Part shown: in pieces, positions 2,854 through 14,827 of the stretch
How the letters are laid out: every line of letters begins with the position of its first letter
Numbering within the stretch: the stretch's first letter is position 1
Translations under genes and position numbers: made by a program
Notes under the pieces: model-generated
What the model was told of the DNA's origin: nothing
Seen by the model: only the letters and a program-made list of their open reading frames with translations
Databases searched by the model: none
Source of the DNA: a bacterium
Lineage (GTDB): Bacteria > JAJRZV01
Direction: 5' to 3'
DNA length: 18,826 nucleotides
NCBI GenBank assembly: GCA_024275095.1
Contig: JAJRZV010000086.1
Location: 1 to 18,826, forward strand

Positions 2854-3739
2854 AGTCTATTCGTACTGTGAAAAGGTTATCAGCTCCTTCGAACGTTTCC
2901 TGAAGGGGCAGGTAAAAAAATCTTTCGCATCTGCACCCACTGAATTGCAGGAAGCAGCCCAGTATGCTGTTGGTACAGGTGGCAAACGCATACGTCCTTT
3001 ACTCTTTTTGACTTCCGCTTATTCACTCGGCCAGGAAGAAAACGACAGTTTGCTGTATTTTGCCACAGGAATAGAGTTCATCCACACGTACACACTTGTA
3101 CACGACGACCTCCCGTCCATGGACGATGATCTGGAAAGACGGGGACACCCAACGGTGCACGTGGTTTACGGAGAAAGCACCGCCATTCTCACAGGCGACG
3201 CTCTGCTCACTGAAGGAGCAAGACTCCTCATCTCCCCCACGTTACTCAATTCAGTAAGTCCAGATGCGCTGCTGGCAATGGCAGACATTGTTCTGTCCTC
3301 CCGTGGTGCAGGAGGTGTCGCTGGAGGACAATTGCTGGACAAAAAACACGAGGGCACAAATACAGGTGAAAAAACATTGAAGAAAATCTATCGACAAAAG
3401 ACCGGGGAGTTTATTGCTGCATGTATCACGGCCGGTTATATTGCCGGAGGCGGCACATCCAGAAAAGACATTGAATTGCTTCACAACGTGGGAGTGGAAC
3501 TCGGTTATGCTTATCAGATCGGAAACGACATCCATGACCATCTTTACGTAAAACGGGACGCTGAAAAAGGTAAAGCCACTTACATCAAGATCGCAGGGCT
3601 TGAAAAGGCAAAAAAGATGTACGATAAGCTCATGGGCAATGTGTTTCGCGGCTCTGCCAAGGTTACAGAACCCGGATCCCCTCTGATAATGGCTATACAG
3701 TACATTGACGACCTTGTCCGCAATCGATGGATCTCCTGA
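2831..3739 (+). CDS. ispA: Polyprenyl (probable farnesyl) diphosphate synthase
   Basis: This enzyme condenses isopentenyl diphosphate with allylic diphosphates to make the C15 (possibly C20) precursor of quinones and undecaprenyl lipids; 302 residues, normal family length. Visible motifs are GGKRIRP (50-56), the first aspartate-rich motif DDLPSMDDD (92-100) with HTY before it, and the second motif at 231-236. The two-residue PS insertion in the first motif and Tyr87 five residues before the aspartates match E. coli-type bacterial FPP synthase. Oddity: the second motif reads NDIHD instead of the usual DDxxD, with Asn232 at the first aspartate position. It starts at GTG 2831 inside the preceding gene with AGGAAG just upstream, and overlaps dxs by 13 bases. 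Dxs supplies the precursor pathway, so the pair makes biochemical sense. GGPP synthase is the main alternative. Confidence 0.9.
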   Translation: MDKQIRDEVYSYCEKVISSFERFLKGQVKKSFASAPTELQEAAQYAVGTGGKRIRPLLFLTSAYSLGQEENDSLLYFATGIEFIHTYTLVHDDLPSMDDDLERRGHPTVHVVYGESTAILTGDALLTEGARLLISPTLLNSVSPDALLAMADIVLSSRGAGGVAGGQLLDKKHEGTNTGEKTLKKIYRQKTGEFIAACITAGYIAGGGTSRKDIELLHNVGVELGYAYQIGNDIHDHLYVKRDAEKGKATYIKIAGLEKAKKMYDKLMGNVFRGSAKVTEPGSPLIMAIQYIDDLVRNRWIS

Positions 3740-5607
3740 GTCGGGTCAACGGTCCTGAAGACCTTAAAAAACTCTCCCTGCCGGAGCTGTACGCTCTCGC
3801 AGGTGAAATTCGCAAGCTCATTATCCACACGTGTGCAAAAAATGGGGGACACCTCGCATCAAGTCTTGGAGCCGTAGAACTTTCTATAGCTCTTCATTAC
3901 GTGTTCAACTCTCCCGAAGACGTAATCATATTGGATGTGGGTCACCAGGCATACGCTCACAAGATTGTCACCAGCAGAAAAGACAAATTCCACACACTTC
4001 GCCAGTATGGCGGGATTTCTGGTTTTACATCTCGTGAAGAAAGTCCACACGATCCGTTTGGAGCAGGCCACTCAAGCACGTCTATTTCAGCAGCTCTTGG
4101 CATTATCGAAGGGAAACGTCTGAAGGGTCGGAAAGGAAAAGCCGTTGCAGTAATTGGTGATGGTTCCATGACTGGAGGTATGGCTTTCGAAGCACTGAAC
4201 CAGGCAGGATACCTTGGACGGGACATCATTGTGGTGCTCAACGACAACGAGATGTCCATATCACCCAACGTGGGAGCACTTCAGTCATTCATCTCGAGAA
4301 AAATCACAGACCAGTCACTTATCAAGGTCCGCAAAAAAATCAAAGAATTCATCAAGAGCCTCCCCGGAATAGGAGAAGACGTTTACCATGTTATCAAAAA
4401 AGCAGAAGATTCCGTTGTCTCTTTTTTCACCCAGGGCATTGTTTTTGAAGGTCTCGGGTTTCATTACCTCGGCCCTATTGACGGACACAGGCTGGAACAT
4501 CTCATTGAAACTTTCGAGCATGTAGCGGGGTGGGAAGGTCCTATTCTTGTACACGTGGTAACCAAAAAGGGCAAAGGGTATGCTCCCGCAGAGGCAGATC
4601 CAGAAAGGTTTCACGGAGTTGCACCATTCGATATCTCCACGGGGGAGCCACTGAAAAAGAACACACGTCCCACCTATTCTGACGTTTTTGGTAAGACACT
4701 CGTGCAACTTGCTGTCCAAAATTCAGACATAGTCGCGATTACTGCCGCCATGACAAGCGGCACAGGACTTCACCATTTTCAGGCGCGGTTTCCGGATCGC
4801 TTTTACGATGTGGGCATTGCAGAGCAGCACGCGGTTACCTTTGCAGGAGGACTCGCCACACAGGGGCTGCGGCCGGTAGTCGCGATTTACTCTACATTCC
4901 TGCAGAGAGCCTTCGACCAGATTGTACACGACGTGTGCCTCCAGAACCTCCCTGTTCTTTTTGCCGTGGACCGGGCGGGAATTGTGGGAGAAGACGGTGC
5001 CACGCACCAGGGGCTTCTGGACATCCCACTTTTTAACACCTTACCTAACCTGGTCATTATGGCTCCATCCGGTGGTAGAGAGCTGGCTTCCATGCTGGCC
5101 ACTGGTCTGACTCTCACCGGTCCCTCTGCTGTAAGGTATCCACGAGGGCTTATTCCTGACGATTTCGATCCTGAAAAAGAGCTGCCACCTCCCGTGGAAG
5201 TCGGTAAAAGCCGGGTGTTATCCCGCGGCCGTGACATCACCATTATCGCACTGGGACACGTTTTTCAGGCCTGTGAGGAAGCAGCGGAGGAACTCGAAAA
5301 AAAAGGAGTAAGTGTGCGGCTTATAGATGCGCGTTTCGTACGCCCGCTGGACGAAAAAGAATTTCTAACAGCAGCCAGAAGAACACGAAAAATACTCATT
5401 GTGGAAGAGGGAGTTATCACCGGAGGCTTCGGTAGAGCTGTGGAAGCTCTCATACGCTCACGAAAAGAGTTTCAAAATGTGAAAATACTGGTGCACGGAT
5501 TACATACTCCTTTTGTACCACACGGGAACCAGGAAAAGATGAGAGCACTGTATCAGCTTGATGCAAAAGGGATATTGAACCAGTGTTACACATTATTAAA
5601 GGGGTAA
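3727..5607 (+). CDS. dxs: 1-deoxy-D-xylulose-5-phosphate synthase
   Basis: This thiamine-diphosphate enzyme joins pyruvate and glyceraldehyde-3-phosphate in the first step of the MEP isoprenoid pathway; cytoplasmic, 626 residues, full length. Visible features: HLASSLG (42-48), GHQAYAHK (72-79), the TPP/Mg motif GDGSMTGG (144-151) followed by LNDNEMSISPNVG (171-183), the acceptor segment VGIAEQHAVTFAGGLA with the catalytic glutamate near residue 365, and a C-terminal transketolase domain ending with GLHTPFVPHG. All expected catalytic elements are present. ATG 3727 overlaps the upstream prenyl synthase by 13 bases, with no clear Shine-Dalgarno sequence, so translation is probably coupled. The next gene starts 3 bases after the stop. 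Confidence 0.97.
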   Translation: MDLLSRVNGPEDLKKLSLPELYALAGEIRKLIIHTCAKNGGHLASSLGAVELSIALHYVFNSPEDVIILDVGHQAYAHKIVTSRKDKFHTLRQYGGISGFTSREESPHDPFGAGHSSTSISAALGIIEGKRLKGRKGKAVAVIGDGSMTGGMAFEALNQAGYLGRDIIVVLNDNEMSISPNVGALQSFISRKITDQSLIKVRKKIKEFIKSLPGIGEDVYHVIKKAEDSVVSFFTQGIVFEGLGFHYLGPIDGHRLEHLIETFEHVAGWEGPILVHVVTKKGKGYAPAEADPERFHGVAPFDISTGEPLKKNTRPTYSDVFGKTLVQLAVQNSDIVAITAAMTSGTGLHHFQARFPDRFYDVGIAEQHAVTFAGGLATQGLRPVVAIYSTFLQRAFDQIVHDVCLQNLPVLFAVDRAGIVGEDGATHQGLLDIPLFNTLPNLVIMAPSGGRELASMLATGLTLTGPSAVRYPRGLIPDDFDPEKELPPPVEVGKSRVLSRGRDITIIALGHVFQACEEAAEELEKKGVSVRLIDARFVRPLDEKEFLTAARRTRKILIVEEGVITGGFGRAVEALIRSRKEFQNVKILVHGLHTPFVPHGNQEKMRALYQLDAKGILNQCYTLLKG

Positions 5608-5610
5608 TAG

Positions 5611-6261
5611 ATGGGAGGTACCAGACGCATATACCTCGTGAGGCACGGCCAGTCGCGTCCTGTTGACGAGAACGGCATTATCCGAAACATACCAGGACTC
5701 GACCTCACCGAAGAAGGAATACGGCAGGCAAAAAGTACAGCACGATTCCTCAGTCAGGCTCCCATCGGTGCAATATATTCAAGCGATGCCCCCCGAGCAG
5801 TCAAAACAGCCGAGATCATTGCACAGGAGTTAAATTTAAAAGTACAGACCTTTCCATGGCTGCGAGAATTTTCAGTTGGAGACCTGGAGGGGACACCTTT
5901 CTGGGAGCACCTGGAAGAAATAAAAAAAATTACCCGGTTAAACCGACTTGACCCCTACACCCGATTCTCGGGTGGAGAGAGCATTCAGGACCTGCACGAC
6001 AGGGTTATCCCCCCGTTGAAAAAGCTCCTTCAAGAGAGCCCACAGCACGTATGTATAGTGGCACACGGGGGCGTCAACAGGGTCATTCTCATGTCCCTGC
6101 TGAACCTGCCGTTAGATTTTTTCACACGCATAGATCAGGAAAATGCCTGTGTAAACATCATTGACGTTTCCAACGATCAGGCGATTCTACGATTGCTCAA
6201 TTTTGTTCCTTACGACGGGGTCAAAGTTCAGCGTGACATCAATGTGTACGTGACGCTCTGA
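5611..6261 (+). CDS. Histidine phosphatase superfamily protein (phosphoglycerate-mutase-like)
   Basis: 216 residues of the branch-1 histidine phosphatase fold. The phospho-accepting histidine is in VRHGQS (His12). Other catalytic-site residues visible are Arg62 (SSDAPRAVKTAE), Glu86 (LREFSVGDLEG) and His152 (IVAHGGVNR). Members dephosphorylate sugars, nucleotides, or alpha-ribazole-5-phosphate in cobalamin synthesis (CobC), and the sequence alone does not choose a substrate. No cobalamin genes lie nearby, so CobC is not supported by context. ATG 5611 follows AAAGGGG (5598-5604) at 6-base spacing. The stop overlaps the next ATG by one base (TGATG). Placement after dxs suggests only shared transcription, not a shared pathway. 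Confidence 0.88.
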   Translation: MGGTRRIYLVRHGQSRPVDENGIIRNIPGLDLTEEGIRQAKSTARFLSQAPIGAIYSSDAPRAVKTAEIIAQELNLKVQTFPWLREFSVGDLEGTPFWEHLEEIKKITRLNRLDPYTRFSGGESIQDLHDRVIPPLKKLLQESPQHVCIVAHGGVNRVILMSLLNLPLDFFTRIDQENACVNIIDVSNDQAILRLLNFVPYDGVKVQRDINVYVTL

Positions 6262-7007
6262 TGATGCTTTTGCCCCGTCATCTTCGGGGGTTATCTCACA
6301 GATTCGCGCAAATACTGCAGGCCGTTCTGCCAGGTCACTGTGGCATGTGCGGTGGGAAAACCCTGGGAGTTGAGCCATTGTGCCAGCAGTGCACTAAAGC
6401 CCTGGAGAAACCCCACGAACCCTCGTGTCCCAGATGCGCTGTGCCTTATCCTACATGTGGTAATGTTTCGTGGGAATGCGGCATGTGCCGCACATCTCCC
6501 CCGTCCTTTGACACTGTAATCACAGCTTTCTCCTATGGTCCACACGTAAAAACATTACTCATGGAACTCAAGGAAAGAACGCGGACATGGCCGGCAAGGG
6601 TGCTGGCTGAAGCACTGGTCACGCAGCTTGAAAGAAGTCATGTAAATATAAAAAATTTTCATGCTCTTGTCCCTGTGCCTGCATCTACCGTGTCGTTCTC
6701 ACGCAGATTACTGAACCCCCCGGCCGTGATTTCAGACAAGTTAAGCCCCATTATAAAAATTCCAGTTGTCAAACATGTACTACTTCATAAAGGGAACGTC
6801 TCCAAGCAGAGTGAGCTCAGTTTCAAAGATCGAATGAACAACATCCGCGGCACGTTCATTGTACGCAACAGAGAAAAAGTGCAGGGCAAAAACGTGTTTC
6901 TTGTTGACGATGTGGTGACAACAACCGCGACAGTAAGGGAATGTGCCAGGGAGTTAAAGAAAGCAGGGGCATCTCAAATCGTGGTACTTGCAGGAGCACG
7001 GGCATAG
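6261..7007 (+). CDS. comF: ComF family phosphoribosyltransferase-fold protein
   Basis: 248 residues. The N-terminal zinc-binding part carries cysteine pairs CGMC (27, 30), CQQC (41, 44), CPRC (56, 59), plus Cys66 and CGMC (73, 76). The C-terminal half is a type I phosphoribosyltransferase fold with the PRPP-binding signature FLVDDVVTTTAT (213-224). This layout is that of ComF/GntX proteins, linked to uptake or processing of transforming DNA in several bacteria. The biochemical reaction remains uncertain for most members. Oddity: the PRPP loop is normally VDDVxTTGAT; Thr222 stands where glycine is expected. ATG 6261 overlaps the preceding stop by one base and is immediately followed by a second ATG. 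The next gene begins five bases after the stop. Confidence 0.88.
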   Translation: MMLLPRHLRGLSHRFAQILQAVLPGHCGMCGGKTLGVEPLCQQCTKALEKPHEPSCPRCAVPYPTCGNVSWECGMCRTSPPSFDTVITAFSYGPHVKTLLMELKERTRTWPARVLAEALVTQLERSHVNIKNFHALVPVPASTVSFSRRLLNPPAVISDKLSPIIKIPVVKHVLLHKGNVSKQSELSFKDRMNNIRGTFIVRNREKVQGKNVFLVDDVVTTTATVRECARELKKAGASQIVVLAGARA

Positions 7008-7012
7008 AAGCA

Positions 7013-8227
7013 ATGATCCTGCGATACTACATTCGCAAACATCTGCATCATCCTTTTCAGTTCACGGCTACCATAACAGTATTCGCGCTATCTACTTCCC
7101 TGCTTGCCTCATATTCCTCTATCATCGGGTCGCTGAAAACATCCATTGCAAGACAGGTTTCACGCTTCGGCGCCAATCTGATAGTCACTCCCTTGAAAAA
7201 AAATCTTACAGAAGAAGATGCAATGTATATTAAAGATATATTCTGGCGCCATAACATTGCAGGAATAACACCCCTTGTTAAAATGCCCGTCATTGCACGC
7301 TTGAACCAAAAAAACGTACGTTTAATGCTGGCATTTGTGTGGTTTGATAAAGCATTCACCAACACCCTTGGAGAGAAAGTTATAACAGGGGTAACACAGA
7401 CCATCCCGTCTATAGAACTTACTGATACTTCAATATTCCCACAAAGCGGCATTTACCTTCCCGCAGACATATACAGGCCCGGCCTTCAGGAAGTTTCTTT
7501 TGCAACTCCGTACGGAAACAGGCGGCTCCCGGTTAAGGGGTTTTACCGCGGAGGGGGGGTACTCGAAGACCATGTACTCGCACCCTGGGATGTTTTAAAA
7601 AATTTTTTCCCTGATTCACTGACCCAAGAATTGGAAATTCTGGTGAATGCAATAACCGTTCCTGAAGACGACTTTGCCAGGAAAGACCCCTCCACCATGA
7701 CTCGAAGAGAATATGAAAAATGGTACTGCACCCCTTATGTGACATCTATCGCCAAGCAGATAAAAGAAAAATTGCCTCACGCGGGAGTGAAAATCCTGAA
7801 TGAAAACATTCGCAAGAGAGAAGAAGTCTTTCGCTGGATGTACAGGAATTACATCGGCATCGTCGTATTTATTTTCATGGCAACAATCCTTGCTTTCACA
7901 GGTGTCAACACATTAACCATTGACCAGCGTCGCCGCGAAATTGCTCTGTGGAAAGCCCTGGGCGCTACTTCCAGAGACATATTTATACTGACCACCACGG
8001 AAAGCCTCATTACTGCTGCTATTGCGGCGATATTCGCCATTCCACTGATGGCAGGGATCATCTGCTCACTGCGCAATTTGTTAAAAGGAGATGACATCAC
8101 TCTCGAGTGGACAACCACTATTCTTGCACTGGGATTGGCTGCCATCACCATATCGGTGTTATGGACAATTCTTCCCTGGAGAAGCATTCGAAATACAGAA
8201 ACCTACCACTTTATTCGACGGGAATGA
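7013..8227 (+). CDS. ABC transporter permease 1, FtsX/MacB type (DUF2318-associated)
   Basis: 404 residues with the MacB/FtsX topology: one N-terminal membrane segment (about 18-40), a large extracytoplasmic domain (about 45-275), then three C-terminal segments (about 280-300, 327-350, 368-388). The FtsX-domain signature is clear in TIDQRRREIALWKALGAT (302-319). The extracytoplasmic domain contains Y-E-K-W-Y-C-T-P-Y (234-242), which I recall from permeases next to DUF2318 proteins; this is from memory. Such permeases usually transmit ATPase motion to extracytoplasmic partners rather than form a simple channel. The start is ATG 7013; an upstream in-frame ATG at 6941 lies deep inside comF and would add unrelated residues. 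It ends in ATGA overlap with permease 2, indicating coupled translation and probable co-assembly. The substrate is unknown. Confidence 0.85.
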   Translation: MILRYYIRKHLHHPFQFTATITVFALSTSLLASYSSIIGSLKTSIARQVSRFGANLIVTPLKKNLTEEDAMYIKDIFWRHNIAGITPLVKMPVIARLNQKNVRLMLAFVWFDKAFTNTLGEKVITGVTQTIPSIELTDTSIFPQSGIYLPADIYRPGLQEVSFATPYGNRRLPVKGFYRGGGVLEDHVLAPWDVLKNFFPDSLTQELEILVNAITVPEDDFARKDPSTMTRREYEKWYCTPYVTSIAKQIKEKLPHAGVKILNENIRKREEVFRWMYRNYIGIVVFIFMATILAFTGVNTLTIDQRRREIALWKALGATSRDIFILTTTESLITAAIAAIFAIPLMAGIICSLRNLLKGDDITLEWTTTILALGLAAITISVLWTILPWRSIRNTETYHFIRRE

Positions 8228-9177
8228 AGAGAAGATTTCTTATACGCTATTTCTTACGCGCATGGAATTATTACCGCTGGACATACATTCTCATGACGAC
8301 GGCGCTCATGTTAATCGTTGCACCTGTGGCACTTCATGTGTTAATGAGCACGTCTGCCAATGAATTTATAAAAAAGAGTTCTAAATTTTCTATGGTAGAA
8401 ATTTCTTCATCACAGAAATGCAAATTGATAGATAAAAAATCCGTGCTATCACTTATAAGAAATTTTAAAAATGTCTCTGTTGTAGAAATGGAACTCGAAT
8501 TATCCTGCGTTGACAAAAATGGGATTCCCTTGAAAATACAGGCAAAATCTGATGGCCAAAGTAAAGCGTTATATTTTTCTCAGTGTACCACCGCCCCGTG
8601 TCTGCCCCTGGGTATCACTACTAACATAATAAAACTTGAGGATGTGTGGCAACAAATTCCCTGGGCACAGGGAAAGCTCAGTCAAGTAGTGTTAAAGGCT
8701 GCAAATGCTGAAGCACTTGCTGTGTTTATCAACACGAGGACTCCCTCGTTACGAGCTCGTGTGCGCCACTCGTTCAAAGAGGCAGAACTTCAAACCCTTA
8801 TACGCGTGAAGGCCTTTTACCGCAATGCGTTTTTATTCTCCTGTATTCTTGGATTTATCGCCTTTATCACGATCTCTGTAGGGTTCATTAACCAACGAAA
8901 AAAGTCCTTTGCTGTAATGCGGGCATGTGGAGCAGAAACCAGACATCTGATAAACCTTCTTGTTCTGGAATTGGGAACAGTGTATTTCGCTGCGGTATGT
9001 GTATCACTGATAAGCGTCGCCGTAGGCACATTAGCACTACGGGCGTATACAGCAACTACGCCGCTACTCATATCCACCGTGCTGGCTGTGTCCCTGCCAT
9101 TGCTCCCCGTTGCCATCGCATTCAGCATGATACTCCAGGTCCTTAAAAGTTCAGACACATATACGCTCATGCGATAA
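8224..9177 (+). CDS. ABC transporter permease 2, FtsX type
   Basis: 317 residues. One membrane segment near 20-42, a shorter extracytoplasmic domain (about 45-195), and three C-terminal segments (about 203-222, 242-270, 285-308). The cytoplasmic loop NQRKKSFAVMRACGAETRHL (223-242) is the FtsX-type coupling loop equivalent to the RRREIALWKALGA loop of permease 1. The extracytoplasmic domain holds Cys66, Cys95, and a C-x4-C pair (Cys121, Cys126). The start is ATG 8224, overlapping the upstream stop by four bases. An earlier in-frame ATG at 8107 would only read the end of permease 1 out of frame. The domain is smaller than that of permease 1, so the pair likely forms an asymmetric heterodimer; this is inference. 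Confidence 0.82.
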   Translation: MKRRFLIRYFLRAWNYYRWTYILMTTALMLIVAPVALHVLMSTSANEFIKKSSKFSMVEISSSQKCKLIDKKSVLSLIRNFKNVSVVEMELELSCVDKNGIPLKIQAKSDGQSKALYFSQCTTAPCLPLGITTNIIKLEDVWQQIPWAQGKLSQVVLKAANAEALAVFINTRTPSLRARVRHSFKEAELQTLIRVKAFYRNAFLFSCILGFIAFITISVGFINQRKKSFAVMRACGAETRHLINLLVLELGTVYFAAVCVSLISVAVGTLALRAYTATTPLLISTVLAVSLPLLPVAIAFSMILQVLKSSDTYTLMR

Positions 9178-9188
9178 AAATGATTACC

Positions 9189-9193
9189 GGAGG
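9189..9193 (+). promoter_or_regulatory. Ribosome binding site of the DUF4418 gene
   Basis: GGAGG sits 5 bases before ATG 9199. It is the clearest Shine-Dalgarno sequence in the transport operon and lies in its largest internal gap (21 bases). Confidence 0.6.
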
Positions 9194-9198
9194 ATAAA

Positions 9199-9633
9199 AT
9201 GAAAAAGCAATATTTACTGCCGGCAATCCAATTTTGTGGTGGAGTACTCCTTGTTATCGCCGGACGCTGGCTGCTACCGGTGTGCGAATTTAAGGGAATG
9301 CGCGTGCATGTAGAAGGAGGCGGTTCTGTCCCCATGAAATGTTTGTTCACTCACGAAGCCATAGCACTTGTAGGAATACTTGTCATTTTAAACACGGCAA
9401 TGGAGTTGATATTCGACAGAGTACTGCATAAACCTGTACTGTGGATGAGAATATTACTCTACCTCTCAGTGTTTTATTTAGCATATTATGCACCAGGTGT
9501 GTGTGCAGGACCCTCTATGCCGTGTGTATCAGGAACACGTCCCCTGTGGACGGCGATAGCGTCGATCGGGATTTTCCTGACAGCCTTTCAGCTGTTCCTT
9601 TTAAAATCCTCCGGTCCCGGGGATAGACCCTGA
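9199..9633 (+). CDS. DUF4418-type small membrane protein
   Basis: 144 residues with four likely membrane segments (about 7-27, 52-70, 82-100, 115-135). Recognised from the pattern C29...M-K-C48 followed by a membrane helix, and G-V-C102-x6-C109 before the last helix, which I recall as the DUF4418 signature (MKC..., GVC...MPC). This is a memory match, not a search. The function of the family is unknown. Members are often found beside FtsX-type ABC permeases, as here between permeases 2 and 3. Conserved cysteines near the membrane surface would suit metal binding or disulfide chemistry, but that is inference. It has a good ribosome binding site, and the next gene starts one base after its stop. 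Confidence 0.72.
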   Translation: MKKQYLLPAIQFCGGVLLVIAGRWLLPVCEFKGMRVHVEGGGSVPMKCLFTHEAIALVGILVILNTAMELIFDRVLHKPVLWMRILLYLSVFYLAYYAPGVCAGPSMPCVSGTRPLWTAIASIGIFLTAFQLFLLKSSGPGDRP

Positions 9634-9634
9634 G

Positions 9635-10831
9635 ATGACTTTCAGATCCAGTGTAAAAATACTTTCCTATCTACGAAACGAGCCAAGGCTTCAATATTTC
9701 TTTGTGTGCATATTCCTGTTCTTTACGGCTGTCTCATTCGTCATCTGCAGCGCCAGCGCTGTGCGCAGGGGCCTGAAACATGCTGAATTTTACGTCAGGG
9801 GAATGGTGATAATCACACCGGAAAAACACCTGAAAAATGTGAGAAGTGTATTTCTCAAAGGAACACCTGACTCGTTCGTGTCTTCTCTCACAGAAGGGTT
9901 GGCGGTACACATAAAAGAAAAAGTCAACGTGGAACCATGCGTCATTACCCTGGCACATTCGGCTCCTGCCTCGTGTTGCGATGCAGGCAACCTCCTTATA
10001 GCAGCTTTTGGTGGTAAATGCGCTTTCGCCATGAAAATGGCCGGCATATCCGGGGCTCAGCCCCGTCAGTTGAAAACAGACGAACTTCTTGCAGGGTGCA
10101 ACATCAACCGCAAAGAAGGAATGCCTCTTGTCCTGTACGGCAAACGATTCACAGTAAAAGCCAAATTCAAACCCACGGGTTTAGGATTCTTCGACAATGC
10201 CGTGTTCATGAGCTATCAATCTCTTCGGGAACTTTCGATACAAAGCCTGCAGCGTGACGACGTAAACAACCTCTTTATTCCTGAAAATGCCGTCTCATTC
10301 TATCTGCTTCCTTCCGGATTATCCGGAATTAAAAGGCTGTGTTCCTCAACTCTGCTGGCAGATGCGGGGTTAAGGTGCTTTTTCCCTTCCAATGAATTGA
10401 GGATGCTATCTGAAAAACTGCAAGTTGTCGGTTTCATGGCATTCTATTTTCCACTTGCTGCTGTTATCTTCTGTGCGCTTTTCACAGGGTTCCTGCTTAT
10501 TATTCTAACCATCACAGCACATCCCATGCTAATCCAGAATGCACTCTGGGGAGCAGCTCCCCGGGAATCAGGAAAAGACGCGCTGCTTCTCTTTCTGATA
10601 AGCGCGGGGATTCCCGCTGTTGCTGGTACATTTGTCGGTTCTTACATTTCACTTCTTTTTTCCCGCTACTTCACCGGGATGCTGGGAATTCCTTATTTAG
10701 AATCGAGAATGGTAACGGTAGTGGCGGTTATTTTATCCACAGGCTATGCACTGATCGCGGCGGCCATCTTTGCCATAATGACCTACTTCCGTATTCGAAA
10801 GGATATTCTCCTGGAGAGAATATACCTTTAA
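9635..10831 (+). CDS. ABC transporter permease 3, FtsX-like
   Basis: 398 residues: an N-terminal membrane segment (about 19-40), an extracytoplasmic domain (about 45-265), then three segments (about 270-298, 318-342, 362-385). The topology is that of FtsX permeases, but the cytoplasmic coupling loop (AHPMLIQNALWGAAPRESGK, about 305-325) is more divergent than in permeases 1 and 2. The extracytoplasmic domain carries Cys102, a vicinal pair in SAPASCCDAGN (Cys114-Cys115), Cys129 and Cys155. I recall a similar Cys-Cys motif in permeases that neighbour DUF4418 genes. That suggests permease 3 and the DUF4418 protein work as a unit, perhaps with the ATPase encoded directly after it (one base gap). 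Substrate unknown. Confidence 0.78.
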   Translation: MTFRSSVKILSYLRNEPRLQYFFVCIFLFFTAVSFVICSASAVRRGLKHAEFYVRGMVIITPEKHLKNVRSVFLKGTPDSFVSSLTEGLAVHIKEKVNVEPCVITLAHSAPASCCDAGNLLIAAFGGKCAFAMKMAGISGAQPRQLKTDELLAGCNINRKEGMPLVLYGKRFTVKAKFKPTGLGFFDNAVFMSYQSLRELSIQSLQRDDVNNLFIPENAVSFYLLPSGLSGIKRLCSSTLLADAGLRCFFPSNELRMLSEKLQVVGFMAFYFPLAAVIFCALFTGFLLIILTITAHPMLIQNALWGAAPRESGKDALLLFLISAGIPAVAGTFVGSYISLLFSRYFTGMLGIPYLESRMVTVVAVILSTGYALIAAAIFAIMTYFRIRKDILLERIYL

Positions 10832-10832
10832 A

Positions 10833-11492
10833 ATGCTTGAACTCCATCACATATCAAAGGTTTTTAATGTGCATGGTCGGGCAATATTTGCATTGAAAAA
10901 TGTATCCTGCCAGTTTCGTGAAAAAGAACTTTACGTTGTCGCAGGCCCCAACGGAAGCGGTAAAACAACCCTTCTGCGAATTGCAGCATTTAACCTTCTT
11001 CCGTCATCAGGGGAAATATTTCTCGATGGGGTTTATATCAACCCGCAAAATTCCCTCCTGAGAATTCAACTCAGAAGTTCCCTTATCAGCTTTTCACCAC
11101 AGCATCCATGCCTGCCACTCTGGCTTACAGGAACAGAGGCTGCCCGTTTCATTCCCAATATTCGAAAAGACCTGTTCGAATACTACTGTACAGTCCTCAA
11201 AGCCGAGGACGTTTTAAAACGCCCTCTCGGAGAGCTGTCCATGGGGACGAGAAAAAAGGCAAATCACGCATTTGTTCTTTCCCGGGTCGCAAAGTACTAC
11301 ATATTCGACGAACCTTTCGCATTCTTAGACGATACTTCCCAGGAGTGCCTGCGAGAAATATTCTTCGACCTTACCGGCAAAATGTCTGCAACTGTAATTG
11401 TTTCCACACCGCACAATCTCATGCAGTCAAGCACAGAAAATGTTATTTTTCTGGAAAATGGAGAATGCGTAAAAGGACCCCATGAAATCTAA
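10833..11492 (+). CDS. ABC transporter ATP-binding protein with divergent signature motif
   Basis: 219 residues, a single nucleotide-binding domain. Walker A is GPNGSGKTT (38-46), the Q-loop glutamine is Gln90 (SPQHPC), Walker B is YIFDE (156-160) with catalytic Glu160, and the switch histidine is His194 (STPHN). The signature, normally LSGGQ, reads LSMGTRKK (135-142), closer to the LSxGxxxR form of ABC-2/CcmA-like exporters. All residues needed for ATP hydrolysis appear present. It overlaps the next ATPase gene by 11 bases. Two unlike ATPases next to each other suggest either a heterodimer with two non-equivalent ATP sites or two transporters encoded together. Confidence 0.88.
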   Translation: MLELHHISKVFNVHGRAIFALKNVSCQFREKELYVVAGPNGSGKTTLLRIAAFNLLPSSGEIFLDGVYINPQNSLLRIQLRSSLISFSPQHPCLPLWLTGTEAARFIPNIRKDLFEYYCTVLKAEDVLKRPLGELSMGTRKKANHAFVLSRVAKYYIFDEPFAFLDDTSQECLREIFFDLTGKMSATVIVSTPHNLMQSSTENVIFLENGECVKGPHEI

Positions 11493-12156
11493 CGAAGCAA
11501 TCCTTACAGTCACCGGCATTACCAAAATTTACGGAAACACCCTTGCGCTTAACAATGTCTCGTTTTTAATAAATTCCGGCGAATGGGTTTCCGTGATGGG
11601 GCCTTCAGGTTCGGGGAAAACCACACTCCTGGGCATCATTTCAGGAATCATCAAACCCTCTTCAGGAAAGGTCATCCTCACAGGAAAAGAAATTACAGCT
11701 ATGAACGATGAAGAACTGAGCCTTATACGACGTCAGTGTATAGGACTCGTATTTCAAGAATACAATCTTATACCTTACCTGACAGCCCTGGAAAACGTGA
11801 TGATGGCCCAGTATTTTCACAGCATCGTAGATGAAGGTGAAGCTGTAGAGGTGCTCCACCAGATAGGGTTAGCCGAAAGAATGCATCACTTTCCTGCCCA
11901 GCTCTCGGGTGGCGAACAACAAAGGGTAAGCATCGCCAGAGCCATAGTCAATCGCCCCCTTCTCCTGTTAGCTGACGAACCAACGGGCAACCTGGACAGG
12001 ACTAATGCACAACGTATTATGGAAATATTCAAACAGCTAAACGAAGAATTGGGGGTTACCATTATATGCGCAACACACGATGAATTCGTTGCTTCATTTT
12101 CACATCGAACCCTTATTCTCCACGATGGGCGTCTCTCAGGAGAACGGGTGAGGTGA
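11482..12156 (+). CDS. ABC transporter ATP-binding protein, LolD/MacB type
   Basis: 224 residues, a canonical single-domain ATPase. A-loop Tyr17, Walker [10 protein letters not shown] (40-48), Q-loop FQEYNLIP (Gln92), signature LSGGEQQR (141-148), Walker [13 protein letters not shown] (161-172) and H-loop His199 (CATHD). The [16 protein letters not shown] and DEPTGNLD wording is typical of ATPases that pair with FtsX/MacB/LolC permeases, so permeases 1 and 2 are the expected partners. The gene starts at ATG 11482 inside the upstream ATPase and ends with a GTGA overlap into the DUF2318 gene. Its role is to energise the extracytoplasmic machinery from the cytoplasmic side. Confidence 0.93.
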
Positions 12157-13451
12157 ATCCTGTCACGCCCATTCTATTCCGGACTTTCGTTGTAGCTGTT
12201 CTTGCATTTCTTCTGTATTTCACAAGCACCCATATAAAAGCAATTTCGCGGCGGGTCGCGTTGTTAACTCTGGCTTACCTGTGGGGTCTTCTCTGGTCCG
12301 GGCTGTATCTTGCCCAGTTCACCAATGCCGGGTACCGCATTGACAAAGTCTTCGTATTGTGGATGCTCAATACATTTCTGATCACCGGGGTACAGACATA
12401 CTGGTGGCTCGCATCAAAAAACAAACAACCATCATGGATAAATCATATGTACATGGTGCTGGTATTTGTCATATTTGCTGCAATTATTTCAGAAGCAGAC
12501 ATGTCGTTCAGACACCTGGCATTTCTCAAACTAAACCGCGTATTTATCCCCATAGGGCACGTAGCCCTGCTGACAGGTGGGGGCCTGTCAATAACAATCG
12601 CTTTAATCATCACCAGACGCTGGAATACCATTGTTGAACGAATACACCCGGCCTTTCCTCTTTTGCTCGTCTTTGCCTGCGTGTTTCTGTTTTACCCGAA
12701 CGTAACCCTGCTCACCGCAATGGTTTTCGCACGCATAGCCCACGACGTGTTTCACTGGGCAAGCGTGTTTTTATTGCTACCGGATCATCCCTACCTCAGC
12801 AATCTCGTATGGGAAATAATCGGGTTGCTATTTAAAAAAGGCACTGGCGTTCTCATTGCCCACGGGGCATTTGCCATTCTTGCCGCAACAGCATTTGGTG
12901 CATTTTACTACCACCGTGACATACCACCGGAGGAGCTGAGCGGCCCTGAAAGACGCCTGTGGCTTGCAGCCAACATGCGCAGGAAAAGGCTCAACATGAT
13001 ATTTCTCGTACCCGTCTTCATCTCCATTTTCGCCAGCCTCACCCACTACCGTATAAAATCTCAGGCCATCTTCGACCCTGATCCGGTTCCTGTGGAACTC
13101 AACAAAGACGGCAGGGTCTACATACCGGTAAAGGACACGGGCGATGGCTCCATGCACAAATTTTCCGTTTCAATAGACAGGGTGAAAATCCGCTTCATCG
13201 TGCTTAAAAAACCCGACGGCAAGTGGAGTGTTGTACTTGATGCGTGCAACATATGCCCTCCCCAGGGTTACGCCCAGATCACAGGTGCACTTTTCTGTAA
13301 ATACTGTGGAACCCCCATACCTCTCAACACTGTGGGGTTGCCGGGAGGGTGCAATCCCGTACCCGTGGAGTTTCACATTTCCGATGGGTTTATTATCGTG
13401 GACGGTAAACAATTGAAAAACACCTGGATTAACTCCACCAGAGGAAAATGA
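12153..13451 (+). CDS. Polytopic membrane protein with C-terminal DUF2318 metal/Fe-S-type domain
   Basis: 432 residues. The first about 300 contain roughly eight hydrophobic segments (for example about 8-24, 35-55, 65-85, 98-113, 133-153, 168-192, 232-252, 282-297). The C-terminal domain has the DUF2318 pattern: His335 (MHKFSV), C-N-I-C (365, 368), C-K-Y-C (382, 385), and PGGCNPVPV with Cys400. Five cysteines in this arrangement suggest a bound metal or Fe-S centre. Homologues include Cj1660 of the Campylobacter cj1658-cj1665 iron-uptake locus. Histidines lie in or near membrane segments (His121, His136, His198, His201). There is no RExxE motif of FTR1 iron permeases. Start GTG 12153 overlaps the ATPase stop by four bases, with AGGAG upstream. 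It overlaps the ResB-like gene by four bases (ATGA). A role in metal acquisition or redox handling is inferred. Confidence 0.83.
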
Positions 13452-14827
13452 AACACAACTCTTCACTACGGCGTGTAATTGAATGCCTGGCTTTCGGGAG
13501 CGTGTTTCTGTATGTCAACTACCTCATTATTTCGGGTAACGTTTCGGCCTTACTCGTGCAGGGAATAGAGATATGGCAGGGTGGTGAGTACGACTTGCCT
13601 CATCTACTTCACGACTTCACTGTTGCACGTCTCATCGGCCTGGCTTTTCTGATTCTCATGCTGGTGCAGGCAACTCTTACTTTCATAAAAAACATTACAT
13701 GGCACAGACAATTCACGGCGTCGATAACATCACCAGCGGATGTGCTCCGAAAAAAGAACCACACAGTTATCAAGTTACCGCTTTCGGATGAAGGCACCTC
13801 AAATTTCGTCACACGCATCATCCTGTTTCTCAAAGAACACGGCTACAACACCTCTGCACTTGATACCTCCTCGTCCACAACCATCATTGAGGGACGCCGC
13901 GTACAAAAGGGGGTGACCGCTGCGTTTCTAACAAAGCTCTCTTTTATCGGTCTCCTTGCATCATTTTTCCTCAGTGCTATCTACAGGCAGGCTGTTGATG
14001 TAAATCTTGCAGAAGGTGAAATTTTTCACAGAATGCATCAGGCCGTGGCATCACGTTTTCAATGGCCTACCAGCAAATCAGAAAATCTAAAGCCCCTGAT
14101 TCGCGACCTGCTCTCCCGTGGTTTTACAATCGAAAGCGTCATCTTCACCCGGGACGAGCTTCCTGCAGAAGCAGGTAAAGAACTTTTCGCAGGTGTACTT
14201 TATGCCCATGTTACGTATACATCTCCAGAAGCACAAGGTGATTTTCTTTTGGGATTTTTCCCACCCCATCGCGTAAAAAACACACTGTTTTTGAATGTTT
14301 CTGATTTCGGTTTCGCACCCTGCATGCGCATATACCATAACAACCAAAGGGTATTCTCCAAGTGCGTGAAAATGAAACTCTTTCCAGTAGGCCGCGAGGA
14401 TGGATTCCCCCTTCCAGGGGAGTCAAACGCCCGTCTGGTTTTTCGCCTGCGTGCTGAAAACGATGTTATTGATACCTATTCTCCCGCCTTCCACACCACC
14501 CTCTACTCAACCGGCGGAAAGGTTGAAGGAATTCTCAAAACCGGACAAACCCTGGCCCTCAGCTCCTACACGATCCTGCTGGTAAGAACGATTCCCTGGA
14601 TCACCCTCACATTTACCCGCGATGCAGGCCTGGTGGTCCTGTGGCCGTCTTTAATAGCATTAATGTTCTCGTGTGTGCTTTACCTCGTGCTAAGCATTAC
14701 TTCACGCACTCCTCGAGTGGTTGTGCTCGTCATGCGGTCTGGGAAGGACGTGAAAACATACGCAACCGGAACTTCAACATTTCTAAAAAAACTTACATAT
14801 CACCTTTTGCAGCTGAGACAGGAATAG
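13448..14827 (+). CDS. ResB-like membrane protein
   Basis: 459 residues. Membrane segments near 10-30, 58-82, 158-178 and 394-416, with a large soluble part between the third and fourth (about 180-390). The layout and the C-terminal stretch W-I-T-L-T-F-T-R-D-A-G (384-394) followed by a final helix recall ResB/CcsB, the haem-handling partner of CcsA in cytochrome c biogenesis System II, whose equivalent reads LxxxxDPG. ResB normally works with CcsA, but no CcsA-like gene is in this window. In the third helix, where ResB usually has a conserved histidine, I read FLTKLSF with Lys163; the alignment is from memory. ATG 13448 overlaps the DUF2318 stop by four bases. It closes the operon and faces mglA across 31 bases. 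Assignment is to family level only. Confidence 0.65.
   Translation: MKHNSSLRRVIECLAFGSVFLYVNYLIISGNVSALLVQGIEIWQGGEYDLPHLLHDFTVARLIGLAFLILMLVQATLTFIKNITWHRQFTASITSPADVLRKKNHTVIKLPLSDEGTSNFVTRIILFLKEHGYNTSALDTSSSTTIIEGRRVQKGVTAAFLTKLSFIGLLASFFLSAIYRQAVDVNLAEGEIFHRMHQAVASRFQWPTSKSENLKPLIRDLLSRGFTIESVIFTRDELPAEAGKELFAGVLYAHVTYTSPEAQGDFLLGFFPPHRVKNTLFLNVSDFGFAPCMRIYHNNQRVFSKCVKMKLFPVGREDGFPLPGESNARLVFRLRAENDVIDTYSPAFHTTLYSTGGKVEGILKTGQTLALSSYTILLVRTIPWITLTFTRDAGLVVLWPSLIALMFSCVLYLVLSITSRTPRVVVLVMRSGKDVKTYATGTSTFLKKLTYHLLQLRQE

Follow-up and report, generated by a model that had tools for sequence, protein, structure and literature searches.

The Fet system of Campylobacter jejuni (FetMP-FetABCDEF, Cj1658-Cj1665), which mediates P19/FTR1 iron uptake, is the closest studied counterpart of an eight-gene operon found in a stretch of bacterial DNA of 18,826 nucleotides (contig JAJRZV010000086.1 of assembly GCA_024275095.1, GTDB lineage JAJRZV01; hereafter the window). 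Mutants of C. jejuni fetA-fetD show poor growth when iron is low (PMC10783030), Campylobacter FetE is a thiol oxidoreductase (PMC10783030), and the experimentally studied relatives all act in iron uptake (PMC10783030, PMC6083913). The window and the C. jejuni system have in common, within one cluster, a membrane protein with DUF2318, a pair of unequal FtsX-type permeases and an ATP-binding cassette (ABC) ATPase. However, the window has neither P19 nor an intact FTR1; its type of DUF2318 protein instead keeps a degenerate FTR1 domain with an HDxxH...PDH motif, and it adds a ResB-like subunit and, in the window only, a DUF4418 cassette. By sequence, therefore, the DUF2318 gene and the FetB/FetC/FetD cluster place the operon with the Fet/P19 systems, from which it departs in P19 and intact FTR1. 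Fusion clusters of FTR1 and DUF2318 in Acidobacteriota and Chloroflexota (e.g. L016, L044) have the same fusion order, with FetB, FetC and ATPase genes adjacent, but keep the two REGxE motifs (52/55) and have no ResB-like gene. System II cytochrome c synthetases (ResB/CcsA, CcsBA) are homologous to the last protein of the operon over most of its length and have bona fide members in the same genome, although the operon is without CcsA and combines this protein with an FtsX-type ABC. These comparisons establish an FTR1-inactivated, ResB-partnered variant of Fet; that it serves extracytoplasmic haem or c-type cytochrome maturation, and not iron permeation, is a proposal that we hold with about even confidence.

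The operon consists of eight co-directional genes, w1 to w8, filling positions 7013-14827, with the following features:

7013-8227, + strand: w1, FtsX-type permease, FetB homolog, 404 amino acids (Pfam and a FetB-family hidden Markov model, HMM)
8224-9177, + strand: w2, FetC-like permease of FtsX type, divergent, with a short chain of about 317 amino acids (Pfam and FetC-family HMM)
9199-9633, + strand: w3, DUF4418 protein with four predicted transmembrane (TM) helices (PF14387, alignments, AlphaFold2 model)
9635-10831, + strand: w4, permease of the DUF4418-linked type, CC motif at residues 114-115 (HMM made without w4)
10833-11492, + strand: w5, divergent ABC ATPase, nearest to ECF (energy-coupling factor)/CcmA types (PF00005, NCBIfam, sequence)
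11482-12156, + strand: w6, FtsE/LolD-type ABC ATPase, FetD homolog (PF00005, NCBIfam FtsE, phmmer)
12153-13451, + strand: w7, membrane domain of FTR1 descent, lacking REGxE, with DUF2318 fused at its C-terminal end (PF10080, hhalign, clade)
12741-12788, + strand: HDxxH-x8-PDH motif, w7 residues 197-212 (alignment)
13143-13421, + strand: DUF2318 domain in w7, predicted Rieske-like fold (Pfam, AlphaFold2, VIA)
13448-14827, + strand: w8, ResB-like protein lacking the TM3 histidine (hhalign, alignment)
6261-7007: comF, ending 5 bases before w1

The distinguishing component is w7, a FetA-like protein in which, as sequence comparison establishes, an FTR1-derived membrane domain has lost its acidic iron motifs and gained HDxxH...PDH, and is joined to DUF2318 (PF10080, 1e-24). 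Its membrane half, aligned from 14 sequences, matched FTR1 domains in hhalign at 99.3% (E 5e-20, 279 columns), where unrelated membrane families used as controls gave 0.1-0.3%. Most of the relatives found have DUF2318 fused to a true FTR1 permease (PF03239 at 5e-40 in L016). Both REGxE motifs are gone from w7, and none of the 17 ResB-linked DUF2318 proteins has the pair that is usual in FTR1-fused ones; conversely, HDxxH-x8-PDH occurs in all 14 main ResB-linked proteins, in 0/55 FTR1-fused and in 0/8 P19-type proteins. Three secondary ResB-linked paralogs are without it. Such a second DUF2318 paralog lacking HDxxH...PDH is seen in L041 (16721-17992) and L080 (9757-11999), and in the latter a further short ResB-like gene comes next. 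The preliminary description of the window had reported P19 and an FTR1-like permease as absent; a Pfam search found neither P19 (PF10634) nor FTR1 (PF03239) in the window or the whole genome, yet a degenerate FTR1 domain sits fused in w7.

The DUF2318 domain is predicted to be a four-cysteine Rieske-like fold. Its cysteines are spaced CxxC-x13-CxxC-x14-C (C365, C368, C382, C385 and C400), and it is modelled by AlphaFold2 with a predicted local distance difference test (pLDDT) score of about 90-97. Comparison of the model with Rieske ferredoxins gave VIA Z scores of 8-10 for residues 318-424 (about 92-104 residues, root-mean-square deviation 2.6-3.7). The canonical Rieske ligands CxH/CxxH are absent, with CxxC/CxxC at those places as read from the sequence and not from a superposition.

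The variant recurs. A DUF2318 alignment was used to scan 84,980 species genomes, from which 80 loci were kept, 14 of them of the ResB-linked type, belonging to Nitrospirota, Geobacteraceae, Anaeromyxobacter and one further bacterium. Of these, 14/14 have a ResB-like gene, against 0/66 other DUF2318 loci, as counted with a family model built partly from those same loci; w8 alone finds eight of the ResB-linked loci in phmmer at 1e-5 to 2e-9. Several loci (L034, L036-L041) have the order FetB-FetC-ABC-DUF2318-ResB-like, which matches the window once w3-w5 are taken away, and P19 is found in 0/14. The DUF2318 tree groups all its 14 proteins of the ResB-linked type, including w7, in one clade (100/99). 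The earlier suggestion of a distinct Fet-like variant is thus upheld for a FetB-FetC-ATPase-DUF2318-ResB-like core that recurs without P19 or intact FTR1, and the neighbourhood comparison proposed with it returned that core in 14 loci; the full eight-gene set with DUF4418 was seen in the window only. Among 386 independently sampled genomes the window is the sole locus of the ResB-linked type, so the variant is rare. The other DUF2318 loci in that sample are FTR1 fusions, P19 clusters, orphans, and short DUF2318 proteins with one FtsX permease and one ATPase. This last arrangement, without FTR1 or P19 (L163-L167, L169, L172, L174, L179, L180), is the commonest for DUF2318 in the unselected sample, and no functional study of it was found in the literature searched.

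The sequence of w8 has no match to PF05140 (ResB), and CCB1 alone was hit, below cut-off, at 2e-4. Profile-profile comparison nevertheless establishes it as a ResB-family subunit: the w8 family aligned with bona fide ResB from this genome and related ones at 99.5% in hhalign (E 2e-22, 321 columns), against about 0.1% for controls. Hence, the ResB-like assignment made earlier fails by Pfam and stands by homology over most of the protein. The TM3 histidine is missing throughout the w8 family, and present in the canonical ResBs of C86, C61 and L041.

Sequence families likewise identify w1, w2 and w6 as a FetB/FetC/FetD ABC. The permease w1 (PF02687 FtsX, 4e-11) matches the FetB-family HMM at 2e-63 versus 3e-25 for FetC, although its branch length in the FetB tree exceeds 3 and it was not placed. 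Assignment of w2 (PF02687, 2e-8) to FetC is weak, with 5e-8 for the FetC-family HMM versus 2e-5 for FetB. The ATPase w6 matches ABC_tran (PF00005, 1e-34), NCBIfam FtsE (2e-63) and Fet-cluster ATPases (phmmer, about 1e-63 to 1e-77).

Genes w3, w4 and w5 are identified by sequence as a DUF4418 ABC cassette nested within this set: a DUF4418 protein, a permease with a CC motif and an ATPase are adjacent, the last being atypical. The protein w3 matches PF14387 at 4e-16. Its residues C29, C48, C102 and C109 are invariant in a five-sequence alignment, while C48 is not in all rows of a three-sequence alignment; its AlphaFold2 model (pLDDT 70) has four helices, and against the PDB the DUF4418 model matched generic four-helix bundles alone, which is uninformative. 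No Pfam match was obtained for w4, and the FetB and FetC HMMs miss it, but an HMM of DUF4418-linked FtsX permeases built without w4 matches it at 2.7e-27, and the CC motif is common to 8/9 of these permeases. In w5 (PF00005, 9e-19) the best NCBIfam matches are of ECF/CcmA type, far under their cut-offs. Its Walker A motif is intact and its signature reads LSMGT in place of LSGGQ, and because of this the second ABC may contain a degenerate or regulatory ATPase. The usual ATPase of DUF4418 cassettes is more like w6, and unlike w5.

Most of the inventory first drawn up for the operon is therefore sustained: DUF4418 and DUF2318 proteins are present, and the two ATPases are indeed unlike, w5 being divergent and nearest to ECF/CcmA and w6 of FtsE/LolD type. 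Of the three FtsX permeases claimed, w1 and w2 are recognized by Pfam, and w4 is supported by profile comparison alone. The single-strand, eight-gene arrangement with gaps of at most 21 bases is borne out by the open reading frame coordinates. Five overlapping junctions had been counted where the coordinates give four, namely w1/w2 (4 bases, ATGA, with the w2 start read from the sequence), w5/w6 (11), w6/w7 (4) and w7/w8 (4); the remaining gaps are of 21, 1 and 1 bases. Since comF ends so close to w1, the transcription unit may begin further upstream. A scan of the window for promoters and terminators gave results little above chance.

The genome of which the window is one contig (C51) comprises 2.45 Mb, is 97% complete and, among the genomes searched as relatives, has none closer than the same domain. 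It provides part of the evidence on function, which concerns the company kept by ResB-linked loci. Many of these loci have nearby genes for canonical ResB, CcsA and a small membrane protein resembling CopD (its CopD match is below cut-off), which lie near 0/66 of the others; a thioredoxin-like companion accompanies only some. Multihaem cytochromes are near the variant at 3/14 loci only, and so are not claimed as a general rule. A B12 radical S-adenosylmethionine (SAM) protein, encoded outside the operon, resembles BchE, the anaerobic Mg-protoporphyrin ester cyclase (TIGR02026, 428 bits under a cut-off of 481); such proteins occur in 15/15 genomes with the ResB-linked type and in 0/13 with other DUF2318 types, a correlation whose Fisher value of 3e-8 overstates independence because few lineages are involved. 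In the window's genome ResB, CcsA, CopD-like and BchE-like genes lie close together on contig C61 (L029, 745-5176). Since iron residues have been lost, a His motif and ResB-like partner acquired, and the core recurs beside cytochrome-building genes, we conclude that haem or cytochrome assembly is probably its role, rather than iron import. The machine for metal, haem or redox handling envisaged initially is consistent with the core, and the companions narrow it to haem and cytochrome c.

ABC systems such as MacB, LolCDE and FtsEX use ATP hydrolysis for conformational or mechanical work. We favour an accessory role in extracytoplasmic haem/cytochrome maturation, in which, by analogy, the FtsX-type ABC would perform conformational work on w7 and w8 with no ion moved; the DUF2318 domain would carry a metal or [2Fe-2S] centre, and the His motif of w7 would bind haem or metal. 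Together they might supply haem or apocytochrome to the genome's ResB/CcsA synthetases, or condition its redox state for them; the DUF4418 cassette, through the exposed cysteines of w3 and the CC motif of w4, would perhaps add thiol or metal handling. An iron permease, FTR1, has here been turned to something else within a conserved machine. That a FetABCD-type module persists where no intact iron permease remains points to redox or cofactor handling as the module's own task, which bears on what FetABCD does for FetMP. Furthermore, the DUF2318/FtsX ABC module becomes linked to cytochrome c biogenesis and DUF2318 acquires a testable four-cysteine Rieske-like model.

Several observations weigh against a haem or cytochrome role. 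There are no cytochrome genes in the window, and its genome's ResB, CcsA and BchE-like genes are on a different contig from the operon. Lacking the TM3 histidine, w8 does not have to be a haem binder. The greater part of w7's membrane half is modelled at a pLDDT of only about 45-65, and a sequence search of the PDB with the DUF2318 alignment gave no Rieske match. The genomes in the BchE-like correlation are mostly Nitrospirota, and loci of BchE-like genes with ResB and/or CcsA also exist without a Fet-type module of this type (L150-L156), which makes the module seem accessory to that system.

The alternative that survives best, and to which we give a substantial though minority share of belief, concerns the cassette only and is compatible with a haem or cytochrome role for the core: the ResB-linked variant of Fet and a DUF4418 ABC transporter unrelated to it would be independent of each other and share no more than a transcript. 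DUF4418 is found inside the ResB-linked set in the window only (0/14 related loci), and DUF4418 cassettes without DUF2318 exist at L018-L021; set against this, the cassette is nested between the homologs of fetC and fetD, and in two rumen Clostridia (L075, L084) a DUF4418 cassette lies next to an ordinary Fet cluster with P19/FTR1. No paper connecting DUF4418 with DUF2318 or FtsX was found in a literature search. The two families are further linked at L157 (9268-11562), where a DUF2318 lipoprotein lies beside an ATPase and a CC-motif permease of DUF4418 type. Beside the DUF4418 cassette of L020 stands a protein (3373-3795) whose ECGM motif gives it, by reading only, a resemblance to NosL, which hints at copper.

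It is unlikely, in our view, that the operon handles copper or thiols for periplasmic metalloproteins, by copper delivery or apocytochrome thiol reduction, instead of haem. The conserved DUF4418 cysteines, the w4 CC motif, the NosL-like reading, the CopD-like companion, short DUF2318 proteins near heavy-metal-binding-like proteins (L179) and the thiol oxidoreductase activity of FetE would all accord with such a role; but the ResB/CcsA association is more specific, the thioredoxin-like companion is irregular and the CopD match falls short. Equally doubtful is that the operon is still an iron importer, with w7 an iron permease of altered ligands (the His motif) powered by the ABC and a redox-active DUF2318, as the descent of w7 from FTR1 and the function of all studied relatives would favour, for both REGxE motifs are lost, P19 is missing from every related locus, FeoB is already present in the genome, no Fur box was matched in the window and the partners are ResB/CcsA genes.

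A more elaborate version of the haem or cytochrome role, which we regard as a long shot, is that a modified tetrapyrrole from the BchE-like enzyme is placed in extracytoplasmic cytochromes via ResB/CcsA in non-phototrophs, with the w7-type protein, FtsX-type ABC and ResB-like subunit as a dedicated handling machine to which the window's lineage adds the DUF4418 cassette. The window's genome has no BchB and is accordingly taken as that of a non-phototroph, in which a chlorophyll role for the BchE-like companion is unlikely. The same genome has, at L183 (contig C8, 2458-7874), a BchH-like chelatase subunit over its curated cut-off beside a cobaltochelatase-type ChlI/D subunit; chlorophyll synthesis, as the BchE-like and BchH-like genes might suggest, was set aside on account of this neighbour and the lack of BchB. 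A literature search found no paper on BchE with ResB in non-phototrophs, in which a tetrapyrrole-type radical SAM enzyme is here associated with ResB/CcsA. Seven genome regions of an unselected sample have BchE-like genes in the vicinity of ResB and/or CcsA (the L150-L156 loci above), often with a small lipoprotein, and multihaem-cytochrome-like genes adjoin some of these (e.g. L151, L152, L153).

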